Positions 15,223 to 24,564 of a stretch of 63,943 nt of DNA are shown here, in pieces; within the stretch, counting starts at the first letter, position 1; each line of letters opens with the position of its first letter. Below the pieces are notes generated by a model. That model searched no databases. It was not told the DNA's origin and worked only from the letters and a program-made list of their open reading frames with translations. The DNA lies in assembly GCA_946402315.1 (NCBI GenBank), contig CAMIWC010000007.1, positions 1 through 63,943 of the forward strand. Direction: 5' to 3'. Position numbers and translations under genes: made by a program. The DNA comes from an uncultured Clostridium sp. GTDB taxonomy: Bacteria > Bacillota_I > Bacilli_A > RF39 > UBA660.

Positions 15223-16122
15223 ATGAAGAAAGTTGATAAAGTAATTAATAATACTAATTTAGATACAAAACTAAAACAAGAATTTATTAATGCCTTAAAA
15301 GATAAAGACTTTAAAAAATTAGTAAGTACTTTAAAACTAGAAGAAGACGTTTTAATGAAATATACTTCTCGTTTAGAAGAATGTTCTCATGAATGTAGTA
15401 ATTGTTCTAAATGTACAGGATTACTTCAATGTAGTAATAATGTTAGAGGATATGTACTTACTCCTGAAATAACTAATAATAAGAAATTATTATTTGGATA
15501 TGTTGCTTGTAAGTATACTAAATTAGATGAATATAAAGATAATATAACTTTATTTGATATACCAAAAGAAATTAGAGATGCTTCTTTAGCTGAAGTATAT
15601 ACTAATGATGTTAATAGAGTAGAAATACTTAAAAAGATAAAGAGTTATTACACTAATTATTTTACAAATAACAAAGAAAAAGGTATTTACTTATATGGTT
15701 CTTTTGGATCAGGAAAAACATATTTATTATCTGCTCTTATGAATGAATTAGCTAAAAAAGATGTTAAAAGTATAATAGTACATGTTCCTGAAATGTTAAG
15801 AGAATTAAAAGAATCATTAGATAGTGATTATAGAGATAAGTTCAATTTACTTAAAACAGTACCGATATTAGTACTTGATGATATAGGTGCTGAGTACTTA
15901 ACTAATTGGACTAGAGATGAAGTATTAGAACCTTTACTTCATCATCGTATGAATGAAAATTTACCAACGTTTTTTACATCGAACTTATCGATGGAAGAAT
16001 TAGAAAAACACTTTATATTACAAAATACTAGTATAGATAAAATAAATGCTAGAAGAATTATAGAAAGAATAAAGAAGTTGGCTGATCCAGTAGCGTTAAT
16101 TAGTAAAAACATTAGGAGCTAG
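15223..16122 (+). CDS. dnaI: Primosomal helicase loader DnaI
   Basis: AAA+ ATPase that loads the replicative helicase DnaC/DnaB at origins and restarted forks. 299 residues. The N-terminal zinc-binding region has the cysteine cluster CSHECSNCSKCTGLLQC (about 53-70). The AAA+ domain has Walker A GSFGSGKTYLL, Walker B VLVLDDIGAE, a sensor-type TFFTSNLS and the arginine-rich C-terminal RRIIERIKKL. In B. subtilis dnaI sits with dnaB upstream of thrS. Here thrS follows after one gene and a T-box, a partly conserved neighbourhood. SD GGTGG overlaps the promoter region; the next gene starts 3 bp after the stop. Confidence 0.93.
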   Translation: MKKVDKVINNTNLDTKLKQEFINALKDKDFKKLVSTLKLEEDVLMKYTSRLEECSHECSNCSKCTGLLQCSNNVRGYVLTPEITNNKKLLFGYVACKYTKLDEYKDNITLFDIPKEIRDASLAEVYTNDVNRVEILKKIKSYYTNYFTNNKEKGIYLYGSFGSGKTYLLSALMNELAKKDVKSIIVHVPEMLRELKESLDSDYRDKFNLLKTVPILVLDDIGAEYLTNWTRDEVLEPLLHHRMNENLPTFFTSNLSMEELEKHFILQNTSIDKINARRIIERIKKLADPVALISKNIRS

Positions 16123-16124
16123 TT

Positions 16125-17954
16125 ATGGATTATTCAGAAGTATTAAATACAATTAATGAAGACTACACAAAAGGTACTTCTCGTTGGATTAATAATGTAA
16201 TAAAAGAATTTAGAAAAGGAATTATTAAATTTGATAGGGATAGTCTAGGATTATCTCTTCTTTTGGATGAAATAATTATTTATAGAAGACAAGCTTCTAA
16301 GAAAGAAAGAAAAGCTGTAGATAAAAAAATGCGTGGTGTTATATCCAAGATAGAATCTTTAGCTGATGAAATACATGATTCTTTAGAATTAGATAGAATA
16401 TATAATGCTTTTAAAGAATTAGGTTTAATTCAAAGTAAGAAGAAAGTCAAAGATAGTAATCAAATAAATAGATTTTTAAAATTTATTATTTTTAATTCTA
16501 AAGATATAAATACTATCAAAAGAATTATTGTTGATTATCCAGATATAATTAATTCAATAAGTGAAGATGGTATAGGTTTAATATCTAAAATAACTAAAAA
16601 ATTCTTGTTTAATTTATCTAACTTTATGGTAGATAAAAATATTAAGCATCGTAATAACTTGTTGTTTTATAGTGAAGTATTAAAGATGTTATTATTAAGT
16701 GAAGATAGTAAATATGAATATACTGAAGAATTAGAAAATGAAGCATTAGAAGTATTAAGTGATTTCTTAAGAGAAAATGATGGTTATTATGGTAATTCAG
16801 AATTTACATTTTGGATAACTGATTTATTAGATACAATAACTAAAAGAGCAATTATTAAAACAGAAACAGCTTTAGAAAGAAGTACTGATATCCATAGAGA
16901 GTTTCCTGGAAATGTGATGTTTGTCGTTAAAAATGGTTTGTTTACTAAATATGAAGAAGAATTAGAGAAAAGAGACCATAACGATGAACATATAATTACT
17001 ATCGATTGTGTAGGTGCTAGAGTATTAGATGATGGATTATCTGCGAAGAGATTAGATAATGGTCATTACTTATTAGGAGTACATATAGCTGATCCTTTAG
17101 GATATGTAGGATTTCATAGTCCTTTAATTCAGGAAGCATATAAAAGAACTAGTACTATTTATACTTCGTCAGGAAAACCTATTCATATATTTCCAGATGA
17201 GTTCTATGCTAAAGTAGGTCTTTCTCCTAATAGTAATAATTTAGCAATTAGTTATTACTTAGAAATAGATGAATTAGGTAATATTTATTTGGATCATTTT
17301 GTAATCAAAAAAGAAGTAATTAATGTAAGAGATAGATTTACTTTCAATAAAGGATTAGATGAAATAGTAGCGTCTTCTTTTGATCCTAGAATAGAAGATA
17401 CAGTTGAGAACTTATATAAAATATCAGAGATACTTAAAAAGAAATTACCTATTGCTCCTAAAGATGATTTATTGACCCCAGGAGAGAGGGAGAGTAGTGA
17501 GTTGGTACAATATTCTATGTTTGCTTTAAACATGACTATGGCTAATTATGCAGCTAGACATAAGATTCCTTTCTTGTTTATAGCCAATGGACAAAAAGCT
17601 GAATATTTTGATCAATTACAAGAAATAAATCCTCTACAATTACCAGATAGAGATACTAAATGTTTATATACGCAATTATGTCATAATAGAGGAAAATCTT
17701 TTTATACAACAGATTCTAAACAACTACATCATTCTTTAGGAGGTATTCCTTATACTAGAGTAACATCTCCATTATTACTATTTGGTGATACTTTAGCTTC
17801 TATTGCTCTACATGCCTTTTATTTTGGAGAAGTAGAACCAGAAGACTTACAAAAAGTGGAAGAAGATATGTTTAAAATGGCAAAATATATGAATCATAAA
17901 GTTAAATCAATAGGTTTCTATGAAAGAGGTTGGTCTAAGCTAAATGAAGATTAG
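16125..17954 (+). CDS. RNase II/R-family (RNB domain) protein with substituted catalytic residues
   Basis: 609 residues. The N-terminal 280 are helical and not recognised; the RNB domain spans about 285-580, with no C-terminal S1 domain visible. RNB hallmarks are present (GHYLLGVHIADP, TSTIYTSSGKPIHIFP, the helix YAARHKIPFLF). The metal-binding motif reads TIDCVGARVLDDGLS. Asp294, Asp302 and Asp303 match D201, D209 and D210 of E. coli RNase II, but the place of D207 is Val300. The motif normally read as TSPIRKYGD is TSPLLLFGD, so the conserved Arg500 is Leu551. Activity is therefore doubtful, and an RNA-binding role like that of yeast Ssd1 is possible (inference). It is coupled to dnaI, 3 bp upstream. 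Confidence 0.85.
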   Translation: MDYSEVLNTINEDYTKGTSRWINNVIKEFRKGIIKFDRDSLGLSLLLDEIIIYRRQASKKERKAVDKKMRGVISKIESLADEIHDSLELDRIYNAFKELGLIQSKKKVKDSNQINRFLKFIIFNSKDINTIKRIIVDYPDIINSISEDGIGLISKITKKFLFNLSNFMVDKNIKHRNNLLFYSEVLKMLLLSEDSKYEYTEELENEALEVLSDFLRENDGYYGNSEFTFWITDLLDTITKRAIIKTETALERSTDIHREFPGNVMFVVKNGLFTKYEEELEKRDHNDEHIITIDCVGARVLDDGLSAKRLDNGHYLLGVHIADPLGYVGFHSPLIQEAYKRTSTIYTSSGKPIHIFPDEFYAKVGLSPNSNNLAISYYLEIDELGNIYLDHFVIKKEVINVRDRFTFNKGLDEIVASSFDPRIEDTVENLYKISEILKKKLPIAPKDDLLTPGERESSELVQYSMFALNMTMANYAARHKIPFLFIANGQKAEYFDQLQEINPLQLPDRDTKCLYTQLCHNRGKSFYTTDSKQLHHSLGGIPYTRVTSPLLLFGDTLASIALHAFYFGEVEPEDLQKVEEDMFKMAKYMNHKVKSIGFYERGWSKLNED

Positions 17955-17984: not shown

Positions 17985-17991
17985 TGTATGT

Positions 17992-18196
17992 GAAATGCGT
18001 TGATGAGAAACGAGATTTATTAAAGGAATTTATAGAGAGTCTATGGTTGGTGGAAATAGATAAGGATATTAATAAGTTACTATTCTCGGAGTTGGACCTT
18101 AATAGGATTCCCGGATAAACCGTTATTGAATTAAGTTAAACCATAAGGATGGTACCGTGCAATGCACTCCTACATTTATTTGTAGGAGTTTTTATT
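17992..18196 (+). promoter_or_regulatory. T-box riboswitch, threonine specifier (ACT)
   Basis: tRNA-sensing leader. Stem I base pairs CGAGA with TCTCG, and TTATTA with TAATAA. Between the 3' strands sits the specifier codon ACT (Thr) at 18079-18081, followed by the usual purine. The conserved AGAGAG and GGTTGGTGG distal elements lie at about 18034-18053. A CGG/CCG stem III precedes the T-box AAGGATGGTACCGTGC at 18145-18160. In the antiterminator AGGA-(TGGTACC)-GTGC pairs with GCAC-TCCT. The competing terminator is ACTCCTACA/TGTAGGAGT (18166-18189) plus TTTTATTT. Uncharged tRNA-Thr should therefore permit transcription of the 149-residue gene, thrS and the small membrane gene. Confidence 0.93.
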
Positions 18197-18215: not shown

Positions 18216-18665
18216 ATGGCAAGAATAAGTAACTTAAATGTTAGAAAGAAAAGCAGCGATGTAATTGAAATTTATAGATTACTTCGTGTTTTAAGGGTGT
18301 TTAAACGAACCTCCGAATATTTAAGAGGAAGGATTAGTTTAGTATCAGGGCAATCATTATTAGTATTATGGGAAAATGAAGGAGATCCTGATAGAAAAGA
18401 TAGATTTGAACAGTTAATTGCCTTAAAACTAAATTCTTATGGTGATATGTTACTATATAATCCTGTACCACATATTTATGATGAGTACTTAAGTGAAGTA
18501 AAATCGATAGATGCGATTGTAGAATTAGTAAATAATCCTAATCCTAAGGTACAAAATATAGGTAGGAAGAAATTTATTGAATTCTACGATAAATATTTAG
18601 AAGAAGAAGCAAAGAAAAATGGAGAAACATGTAAAATTATTAAAATAGGAGAGAGGGTAGAATAA
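18216..18665 (+). CDS. Unknown 149-residue protein under threonine T-box control
   Basis: I do not recognise this protein. It is soluble, basic at the N-terminus (VRKKSSD, RLLRVLRVFKRTSEYLRGR) and acidic later, with no membrane segment, signal peptide or nucleotide-binding motif. A likely helical block (residues 60-75, RKDRFEQLIALKL) is followed by YNPVPHIYDEYL and a C-terminal helix with FIEFYDKYLEEEAKK. SD GAAGGAGA is well placed, and codon use resembles its neighbours. It lies between the T-box and thrS with a 1-bp gap, so it must be cotranscribed and probably coupled. A role linked to threonyl-tRNA supply or translation is possible but unsupported. Confidence 0.7.
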   Translation: MARISNLNVRKKSSDVIEIYRLLRVLRVFKRTSEYLRGRISLVSGQSLLVLWENEGDPDRKDRFEQLIALKLNSYGDMLLYNPVPHIYDEYLSEVKSIDAIVELVNNPNPKVQNIGRKKFIEFYDKYLEEEAKKNGETCKIIKIGERVE

Positions 18666-21375: not shown

Positions 21376-21398
21376 AAAAGAGGATTAAATCCTCTTTT
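21376..21398 (-). terminator. Terminator of the helicase gene
   Basis: AAAAGAGGATT/AATCCTCTTTT hairpin. Read on the minus strand it is followed by TTATT and contains the end of the gene. It is nearly symmetrical and could act in both directions. Confidence 0.75.
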
Positions 21399-24300
21399 AA
21401 AATAGTTCTAATTGATCTAATTTTTCACCACAACTTGTTAGAATTAGTTGTTTAATTGTTTCATATGATTTAACAAATGAATTTGGTATTAGTAAAAGAG
21501 CAATACCTTTTTCTCTGCAAATTTGTACTTTCCTATTATCACATTTTTCTCTTTCATAATTGCCAAAGTGTTCTCCTCCTTGAAGTTCAATAGCAATCTT
21601 TGGAATTAAGTCTATCCCTTTAATTTTATATAAAACTATATCAAATTCTAATTTTGAGTTTCTAAGTATTGAATCATCTTTAAAAATATCTGCTAGTTTA
21701 ACATTCCTTTTAGCTTGAAAAGTATTATTAACACTACAAAAATGTGAAATTGCTTGGAAGAACTTATCTTCGTTTTTACTTCCGTTTGAACTACCTATTT
21801 CTATTGTATATGATTCGTTAGGTAATACATCTGTATTTCCATTCTTTGAAACATATTGTATTAGATTATATAAATCATCTTTTTTATCTACAGATAATTT
21901 TTCAATTGCTTCAACATCGGATACAATTATTAAATTCTTTTTAGCACGTGTTACAGCAACATTAGTTATTTCAGAATTATTTTTAATCCACTCAAATGTT
22001 CTTTTACTTGTTTTAGGAGATAGAGAAGAAGAAATAATTATTGTATCTTTTTCTGCTCCTTGAACTTTATGAATAGTTCCACAAGAAATATTATTTATGT
22101 TATTTTCTTTTAACATGGAATTAATTAAGTTTTGCTGGTTGATAAAAGGAGTAATAATTGCGGCATCTGTTAATTGATTTCTTTTTATATAATCAATTAT
22201 AGCTTTAGCTTCTTCATAGTTTTCATTTCTTAGTTGTGAGTTTCTATTTTTAACATCTATTAATGAAAGAGTTCCTTCATCTTTTAAATAATCTAAATTT
22301 AATTTTCCATCATAGAATCTTTTGTTAGAGAAATTAATTATTTTTTTACCACATCTATAGTGATATGTTAGCATTATGTTTTTAGAAATATTATCATGAT
22401 TTCTCATAATATCTAGAATAGAATATTTTGTATAATCATAATCATCGGATATTTTAAATTCTTCTTTTAATTGATCATTAATTATGTCTTCAAGAACAAT
22501 AACTGGTTTTAATTGATTTGTATCTCCAACTAATAATAGTGATTTTGCTCTAGCGATTGGAAGTAGAGCAGTAGCGCTGTTACATTGACCGGCTTCATCC
22601 ATAATAACTAAATCGAATGTATGATATGGAGTACCTAATCTAGAAGCTGAAATATTAGTTGTTATGATTACTGGAAATACGTCTTCTAATAATCTAATAT
22701 TATAATCACTTGTACACCATTTATTAAAAGAGTTTACTCGCTCAATTTCATCATCAATTTTACATATATTAATTAATTCATCATATTTTGTACTTTTTAA
22801 CTTTTTAATGTATTTAAGTGATTCAAAATACATATATTGTTTAAAACTTTGATCTTCAGCTACAGATGTAACAAGCTGTAATACATCTTGATTTGAAACA
22901 ATAGGCATTTTCTTATATTGATCTATTAATATACCAATCTGTTCTTCTACACTTTGATATAAGCGGTTATGTGGATTATTAATAGAAGAGAGTAGCCTTT
23001 TAGCGCTTTCAATTCGATTTTTTAAATCTCTTTTTTCCTCGTATGTCTCTAAGTAAGTTAATAGGTTTTTGTTCCCTTTGTTATTTTTTTCTTTTATTTT
23101 ATTGATTTTATCTTCATCAGGTTCTTTATCAGTTTCATAACTATATAAATCTAGAATTCTTAAAGTTGATTTAGCAACTTCTTCTTTATTACCTAGCCTT
23201 AAATAAGGAAATGGTACATCATCTTTTTCTTTATAAGAAAAGGACAGCTTTTCTAAAATTCCATTTATTGGTTTATTGTTAGAAGAACAAATAAGAATCT
23301 TTTTTGAATTAAAAAATGAACTTAAAATAACATTCAATATAGTTTGAGTTTTACCAGTTCCTGGCGGACCTTCTACATAAGTTATAGGATACTTCATTGT
23401 ATTATAAATTACTCTCATTTGATCTATATTTACTTTGTTATCATATATAACTATGTTTGGTTCTTTTAATTTTTGACCACGCCTATCAGAATTACCAAAA
23501 AATGCTTTAAGTGGACGTTCCAATGTACCAGACTCTATCTTTTCTTCAATTATATTGTATGTTAAGCCTAGATTTGCATTTATACTTCTAGTTAGAATCA
23601 TAAACTCTGGCATTTGATTAATTATTTCATTGTCATGTAGATTTGCTCTTATTAATTCAGTATATTCATTCAAGTATTCATTTAAATGATAAGTAATGTT
23701 ATTTACAAATTCTTCTGGATTAATATCTATATAAGAATTAATAGAGTGTTTTTTATCTTTTATTAAAAAACTACGGTTTACTCTTGGAGTTTTATTAATT
23801 GATAATCTTTTGTTAGAAGGATTAAACATTACATCATAATATAAAACTATATATTCTTTAGTTCCGTCTTCAATAGCGAGAAAAGATAATGCTAAGTGAT
23901 TTATTTCACCTTCATTTTTTCTTTCATCATATTTCTTAATATAATTAAGTACTTGTCTTTCTTGTTGTTCATCTAATTCTATTTGTCTATCTCTTAATAA
24001 AATGCTCTTATCAATTCCTTTAAGTAAAAAAGAATCTTTTTGATAAGGATCATTATCTAATTCATTACATTTAAAATAGTATCTAAGTATATTATTATTA
24101 AAAGTTTCAAATTTTAGCCATTCGGCATCTTCAGGGTTTTGTTCAATCTTATCTATTAATTCTTGTGGCACTTCATAAGTAGTGAATTCAAGAATCTTAG
24201 CTGATAAAATACCTTCAAACTTTATAGTTGCATCTAAATCATCTAAAGACTTATTGTCATTGAACATTGTTACATCAAGTGTTTTATTCTTAAGATTAAT

Positions 24301-24414
24301 ATCTTTTATAGCAATCCAATAATAGGTGATTTCACCATCTTTGTTTTTATAAGATATATCTAGCCATTTCCCTTTTTTGATGCTTTCTGATATAACTAAT
24401 ACTATATTATTCAT
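21397..24414 (-). CDS. Superfamily 1 helicase (DNA2/Upf1-like) with N-terminal WYL-like and C-terminal DUF2726 nuclease-like domains
   Basis: About 1005 residues. The N-terminus (SESIKKGKWLDISY, residues 10-85) resembles a WYL ligand-binding fold. The helicase core has Walker A EGPPGTGKTQTI (about 341-352), Walker B LVIMDEAGQ (about 605), GDTNQLKPV, GTIHKVQGAEKDTIII and NVAVTRAKKNLIIV (about 815-830). The C-terminus (about 880-1000) is DUF2726-like, with LEFDIVLYKIKG...IAIELQGGEHFG, the Asp and Glu-x-Gln of a Vsr/PD-(D/E)XK nuclease fold. Of the three clustered ATGs (24423, 24420, 24414) the last has the best SD (GAGATGATGATA). It stands alone, opposite to its neighbours. Such proteins are often accessory or defence genes, but no partner is present. 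Confidence 0.85.
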   Translation of the reverse strand: MNNIVLVISESIKKGKWLDISYKNKDGEITYYWIAIKDINLKNKTLDVTMFNDNKSLDDLDATIKFEGILSAKILEFTTYEVPQELIDKIEQNPEDAEWLKFETFNNNILRYYFKCNELDNDPYQKDSFLLKGIDKSILLRDRQIELDEQQERQVLNYIKKYDERKNEGEINHLALSFLAIEDGTKEYIVLYYDVMFNPSNKRLSINKTPRVNRSFLIKDKKHSINSYIDINPEEFVNNITYHLNEYLNEYTELIRANLHDNEIINQMPEFMILTRSINANLGLTYNIIEEKIESGTLERPLKAFFGNSDRRGQKLKEPNIVIYDNKVNIDQMRVIYNTMKYPITYVEGPPGTGKTQTILNVILSSFFNSKKILICSSNNKPINGILEKLSFSYKEKDDVPFPYLRLGNKEEVAKSTLRILDLYSYETDKEPDEDKINKIKEKNNKGNKNLLTYLETYEEKRDLKNRIESAKRLLSSINNPHNRLYQSVEEQIGILIDQYKKMPIVSNQDVLQLVTSVAEDQSFKQYMYFESLKYIKKLKSTKYDELINICKIDDEIERVNSFNKWCTSDYNIRLLEDVFPVIITTNISASRLGTPYHTFDLVIMDEAGQCNSATALLPIARAKSLLLVGDTNQLKPVIVLEDIINDQLKEEFKISDDYDYTKYSILDIMRNHDNISKNIMLTYHYRCGKKIINFSNKRFYDGKLNLDYLKDEGTLSLIDVKNRNSQLRNENYEEAKAIIDYIKRNQLTDAAIITPFINQQNLINSMLKENNINNISCGTIHKVQGAEKDTIIISSSLSPKTSKRTFEWIKNNSEITNVAVTRAKKNLIIVSDVEAIEKLSVDKKDDLYNLIQYVSKNGNTDVLPNESYTIEIGSSNGSKNEDKFFQAISHFCSVNNTFQAKRNVKLADIFKDDSILRNSKLEFDIVLYKIKGIDLIPKIAIELQGGEHFGNYEREKCDNRKVQICREKGIALLLIPNSFVKSYETIKQLILTSCGEKLDQLELF

Positions 24415-24564
24415 TATCATCATCTCATTAATAATATAACATATTATATTTTTTAATACTATTAAACATATGTATTGATTTTAAAATATGTTTACATAAC
24501 TAATTGTCAAAGAGGTTATAGATATAATATGGCTGTGTTATAATGATTTTAGGATAGTGATAAT

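Follow-up and report, generated by a model that had tools for sequence, protein, structure and literature searches.

A dnaI-linked RNB-domain paralogue with a degenerate active site, probably a pseudonuclease, in uncultured Bacilli

The window, by which we mean the whole stretch of 63,943 nt that was analysed, carries a gene for an RNB-domain protein between dnaI and the T-box leader of thrS. The features at this locus are as follows.

15223..16122, + strand: dnaI (helicase loader), ending 2 nt before the RNB gene
16125..17954, + strand: RNB-domain paralogue with a degenerate active site, 609 aa (ORF, Pfam and alignment)
16125..16970, + strand: N-terminal region of about 280 aa, predicted to be all-helical, without Pfam or PDB match (model and searches)
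16971..17822, + strand: RNB domain, residues 283-566 (Pfam PF00773, E = 1.1e-31)
17004..17033, + strand: metal motif D294-C-V-G-A-R-V300-L-D302-D303, with V300 in place of Asp207 (alignment)
17508..17510, + strand: codon of Gln462, which replaces catalytic Glu390 (alignment)
17775..17777, + strand: codon of Leu551, which replaces Arg500 in TSPLLLFGD (alignment)
17991..18174, + strand: T-box leader of the thrS transcript (Rfam RF00230, 79.5 bits), starting 37 nt past the RNB stop codon
18667..20430, + strand: thrS (ORF and domain call)

The 2-nt spacing between the dnaI stop and the RNB start codon, together with an upstream AGGAG Shine-Dalgarno sequence, places the RNB gene for translation coupled to dnaI, as had been proposed from the letters alone, and the position just before the thrS leader was likewise recovered. 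The T-box match is full-length (E = 1.9e-17), with a score below the Rfam gathering score of 93. Between the T-box and thrS lies a 149-aa ORF (18216-18665, +) without Pfam family, which has relatives at the same position in L065, from the sister species, and in L090. The window ThrS (587 aa, GTG start) has the tRNA_SAD, core and anticodon domains only; the TGS domain that is usual at the N-terminus was not matched. On the strand opposite to the operon, a superfamily 1 helicase of 1008 aa (AAA_11/AAA_12; 21397-24423, −) shows a weak DUF2726 match at its C-terminus.

We aligned the window protein with RNase II from E. coli MG1655, which serves as the reference for residue numbering. At the metal site, D201, D207, D209, and D210 correspond to D294, V300, D302, and D303, respectively; at the other catalytic positions, Y253, Y313, E390, and R500 correspond to Y346, F407, Q462, and L551. 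The assignment of V300 to D207 is unambiguous because the metal motif aligns without gaps. The original prediction had named two replacements, Val300 for Asp207 with the spacing of the other Asp preserved and Leu551 for Arg500; both are seen in this alignment, and Y313F and E390Q bring the active-site replacements to at least four. An RxH motif and a second Arg, both in the C-terminal half of the RNB domain, are also gone in both the window protein and its sister in genome G001, and three of the four Asp and the Tyr253 equivalent are retained. The window protein thus has the RNB fold of RNase II/R, and lacks the full set of four acidic ligands, the Arg500 and the Glu390 that catalytic RNase II/R require. 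The Pfam scan recognised no CSD, CSD1, CSD2, OB or S1 domain in it, in agreement with the predicted absence of a C-terminal S1 domain, and against the NCBIfam RNase R model it scored 90.5 bits (cut-off 597.85). RNase II activity depends on all four Asp and on Arg500, Asp209 being the most critical Asp (PMC3293843), so the exonuclease chemistry of the window protein should be lost or severely impaired. Elsewhere in the same genome is a canonical RNase R (L151, G000:C1), which has OB_RNB, CSD2, RNB and S1 domains and in which every active-site residue is in place (DDDD + Y, Y, E, R).

The N-terminus of about 280 residues, which had been called unrecognised, stayed so. A Pfam scan of this region in 13 members returned no family. 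The corresponding domain of a congener (L158) was modelled as all-helical (pLDDT 76.6) and had no PDB match at E = 0.001 or better, and a PDB sequence search and Foldseek returned nothing above chance for the fold (top Foldseek E = 0.045). In a class-wide sample of 395 genomes, matches to a profile of the N-terminal part were confined to one bacterial family, plus one borderline match. A full-length AlphaFold model (7 sequences) reached a pLDDT of 49.5 and is unusable for pocket geometry. In Bacillus subtilis the gene order is dnaI-ytxC-thrS, in which the YtxC slot would match the place of the RNB gene. An identification of the N-terminal domain, or of a displaced gene, with YtxC was rejected: PF08812 had no match above the cut-off in the genus or among 120 genomes sampled from the class, with B. 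subtilis as a positive control.

Of the 9 genomes of the genus, 8 encode a full-length relative of the window protein (about 620-680 aa) that is not the canonical RNase R, and such relatives also turned up in several further genera among the 59 related genomes searched. When 386 genomes of the bacterial family were searched with a profile, roughly 70 full-length members emerged. The window protein fits this dnaI-linked paralogue family in having an RNB domain, the family-specific helical N-terminus of about 300 aa, no S1 domain, and a gene directly after dnaI. The paralogue family is confined to uncultured Bacilli of a single bacterial family; the named relatives are MAGs of such bacteria, with rabbit and goat gut as their likely sources to judge by the isolate names (Lapin, Goat_Rectum). 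One genome, G006, has neither the RNB paralogue nor a dnaI match, so a missing stretch is indistinguishable from gene loss there. The RNB gene directly follows dnaI in 43 of the 60 loci fetched, on the same strand, with spacings from a 40-nt overlap to a 22-nt gap, and thrS lies downstream in most of these 43. In G011 and G180, thrS directly follows dnaI and an RNB paralogue with intact residues is found elsewhere in the genome; the locus can therefore dispense with the RNB gene. Copies away from dnaI have as neighbours a glucosaminidase-like gene, a histidine kinase, an FAD-dependent oxidoreductase, and lgt, among which no shared functional theme was found. Four such copies (L113, L116, L118, and L119) have the full Asp quartet, Glu390, and Arg500; L113, L116, and L118 have neighbours of similar size (about 420 and 465 aa), which in L113 are the histidine kinase and the FAD-dependent oxidoreductase.

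To our knowledge, the RNB active site is generally portrayed as all but invariant. Within this family, most members have Glu rather than Asp at position 207 (EIDD), and at least one residue of the acidic quartet, Glu390 or Arg500 is lost in 28 of 43 dnaI-linked copies as against 2 of 17 copies elsewhere (Fisher P = 3.7e-4, a value that ignores phylogeny). Some members (L077, L114, L143) have lost Asp209 or Asp210 too. A quick maximum-likelihood tree, built with the catalytic columns removed and with many weak branches, implied by parsimony about 10 changes between acidic and nonacidic states at 207, 8 at Glu390, 8 at Tyr313, and 1 at Arg500, figures that count state changes on a weakly supported tree and not dated losses. 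The window and G001 are sisters on this tree (SH-aLRT 100), and within the genus only these two lost the 207 acid, Glu390, and Arg500 together; in the sister protein (L065), V replaces D207, T replaces E390, and I replaces R500. The other six sampled congeners carry Glu at 207 and retain Tyr313, Glu390, and Arg500 (EDDD + Y, Y, E, R). Fixation across a clade, which the original prediction had left to be checked, therefore extends to the window species and G001 and not to these congeners. Close relatives with the complete Asp quartet and Arg had been named as evidence against a pseudo-exonuclease, and the congeners go part of that way, with an acidic quartet and Arg but with Glu at D207. Because these six orthologues keep the quartet, Glu390, and Arg500, the loss is recent in a two-species lineage and not genus-wide, and the three losses most simply date to the common ancestor of the window species and G001. 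Sequencing artefact, neutral artefact, and misassembly were rejected, the sister species (L065, G001) having the same losses.

The loss coincides with a strong acceleration: between the window and G001, DnaI is 76% identical and ThrS 70%, as against 35% for the RNB protein, whereas among the other congeners the values are 70-97% for DnaI and 55-94% for the RNB protein (55-68% without a near-identical pair). Such divergence, a pN close to pS between the two sisters (0.44 and 0.46), the retention in the N-terminal part of only 29 of 101 positions that are invariant in the six congeners, and the dispensability of the gene in G011 and G180 are what one would expect of a gene decaying under relaxed selection from redundancy with RNase R and bound to become a pseudogene. 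We regard this as unlikely. The nominal dN/dS of the pair (0.92) is uninformative on selection because the synonymous sites are near composition-limited saturation, and despite that divergence both ORFs are open over 609 and 622 codons with zero stops, where at least 14 stops are expected from a neutral simulation at 23% divergence. The RNB half keeps 83 of 157 congener-invariant positions, and the Shine-Dalgarno sequence and the coupling to dnaI are intact. Members with degenerate sites can, moreover, be under purifying selection, since the pair L105/L109 (Q, D, and M at D207, Y313, and E390) has a dN/dS of 0.10.

It is rather improbable that the window protein still degrades RNA as a 3′-5′ exoribonuclease of low speed or restricted substrate range, one that makes do with three Asp ligands in a rearranged pocket. 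Such an enzyme could use the retained D294, D302, D303, and Y346, and the block of the D-motif (residues 301-350) is the best conserved against the sister (54%). Position 207 is also not strictly Asp in active enzymes: fungal Dss1, the yeast mitochondrial exoribonuclease, has a conserved Glu there, which its authors consider tolerated in active enzymes (PMC8097288), and in this respect most members of the present family resemble it. The window protein, however, has Val, which cannot bind metal, and unlike active Dss1 it is without Glu390 and Arg500, gone in the sister alike; the acceleration that accompanies the residue loss also speaks against this reading.

We consider it likely that the window gene encodes a noncatalytic pseudonuclease belonging to a lineage-specific RNB paralogue family with its usual seat in the order dnaI-X-thrS. 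The pseudo-exonuclease of the original prediction thus stands as the likeliest reading of the sequence, with catalytic residues lost, the gene retained intact, and a complete RNase R elsewhere in the genome. The protein probably does a noncutting job, because most of the machinery is lost and yet the gene is intact, and because relatives have lost parts of it repeatedly. In the proposed course of events, the ancestor of the window species and G001 would have lost the 207 acid, Glu390, Arg500, the RxH motif and the second Arg, and the gene stayed intact, placed for coupling to dnaI and evolving much faster than its neighbours. Deprived of the fourth metal ligand and Arg500, two-metal hydrolysis of the 3′-terminal phosphodiester would fail, and exonuclease activity would be supplied by RNase R. 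The RNB scaffold may then, with less assurance, act by binding without cleavage, either to RNA 3′ ends or as a protein scaffold together with the helical N-terminus. That no part of the protein is kept better than the RNB core makes RNA binding plausible, but the protein is acidic and has none of the domains that anchor RNA in Ssd1 and other RNB proteins.

Degenerate RNB proteins already have a bacterial representative in the cyanobacterial Zam, an RNB paralogue with a degenerate active site that exists beside functional RNB enzymes and retains CSD1, with redox cysteines in that conserved domain, CSD2, and S1 (PMC9145284). Zam is the nearest known bacterial precedent, but it differs from the window protein in having these three domains and in coming from a different phylum. 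With RNase R and RNase II the window protein shares an RNB domain with recognisable D-motif, Tyr253, and TSP motif positions; it differs from them in having no CSD1, CSD2, or S1, in its helical N-terminus, and in four replaced residues. What is new here is the domain architecture of a bacterial RNB protein, its locus, and the recurrence of the losses.

The parallel to fungal Ssd1 drawn in the original prediction holds for the evolutionary pattern and fails for the anatomy. In Ssd1 and fungal Dis3L2, active-site residues were lost repeatedly in a retained RNB lineage, possibly after a second function arose (PMC8097288), as losses also recur in the present lineage. Ssd1 retains CSD1, CSD2, and S1, and its RNA-binding surface is the outer face of the CSDs (PMC8934651), whereas in the window protein CSD and S1 are both absent and the N-terminus is all-helical by prediction. 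The CSDs of Ssd1 are better conserved than its RNB domain, and here the order is reversed, the RNB half being better conserved than the N-terminal half. The parallel is limited to the pattern because the window protein is acidic and without the RNA-anchoring domains of Ssd1 and other RNB proteins. We offer only tentatively, as somewhat less probable than not, the idea that a conserved non-nuclease function at the dnaI-thrS locus predates the catalytic losses, a bacterial counterpart of the Dis3L2/Ssd1 scenario in which about ten independent losses of nuclease residues would have left the protein itself in place. If true, a new helical domain stands in for the OB domains. The many-fold loss of the active site in one dnaI-adjacent paralogue provides natural replicates, with which one may ask whether RNB proteins have a second, noncutting role, and a single genus offers orthologues with active-looking and with broken sites.

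In two other genera, the ORFs that come after dnaI, of 794 and 809 aa (L144, 1245-3629, +; L148, 1-2429, −), match the paralogue profile very weakly (30 and 18 bits) and have no Pfam match; they are possibly RNB relatives degraded past recognition. In L141 (1250-4732, +), a tandem pair of RNB-domain ORFs with degenerate metal motifs (LLEDAF and IKEQAI) lies between dnaI and thrS.
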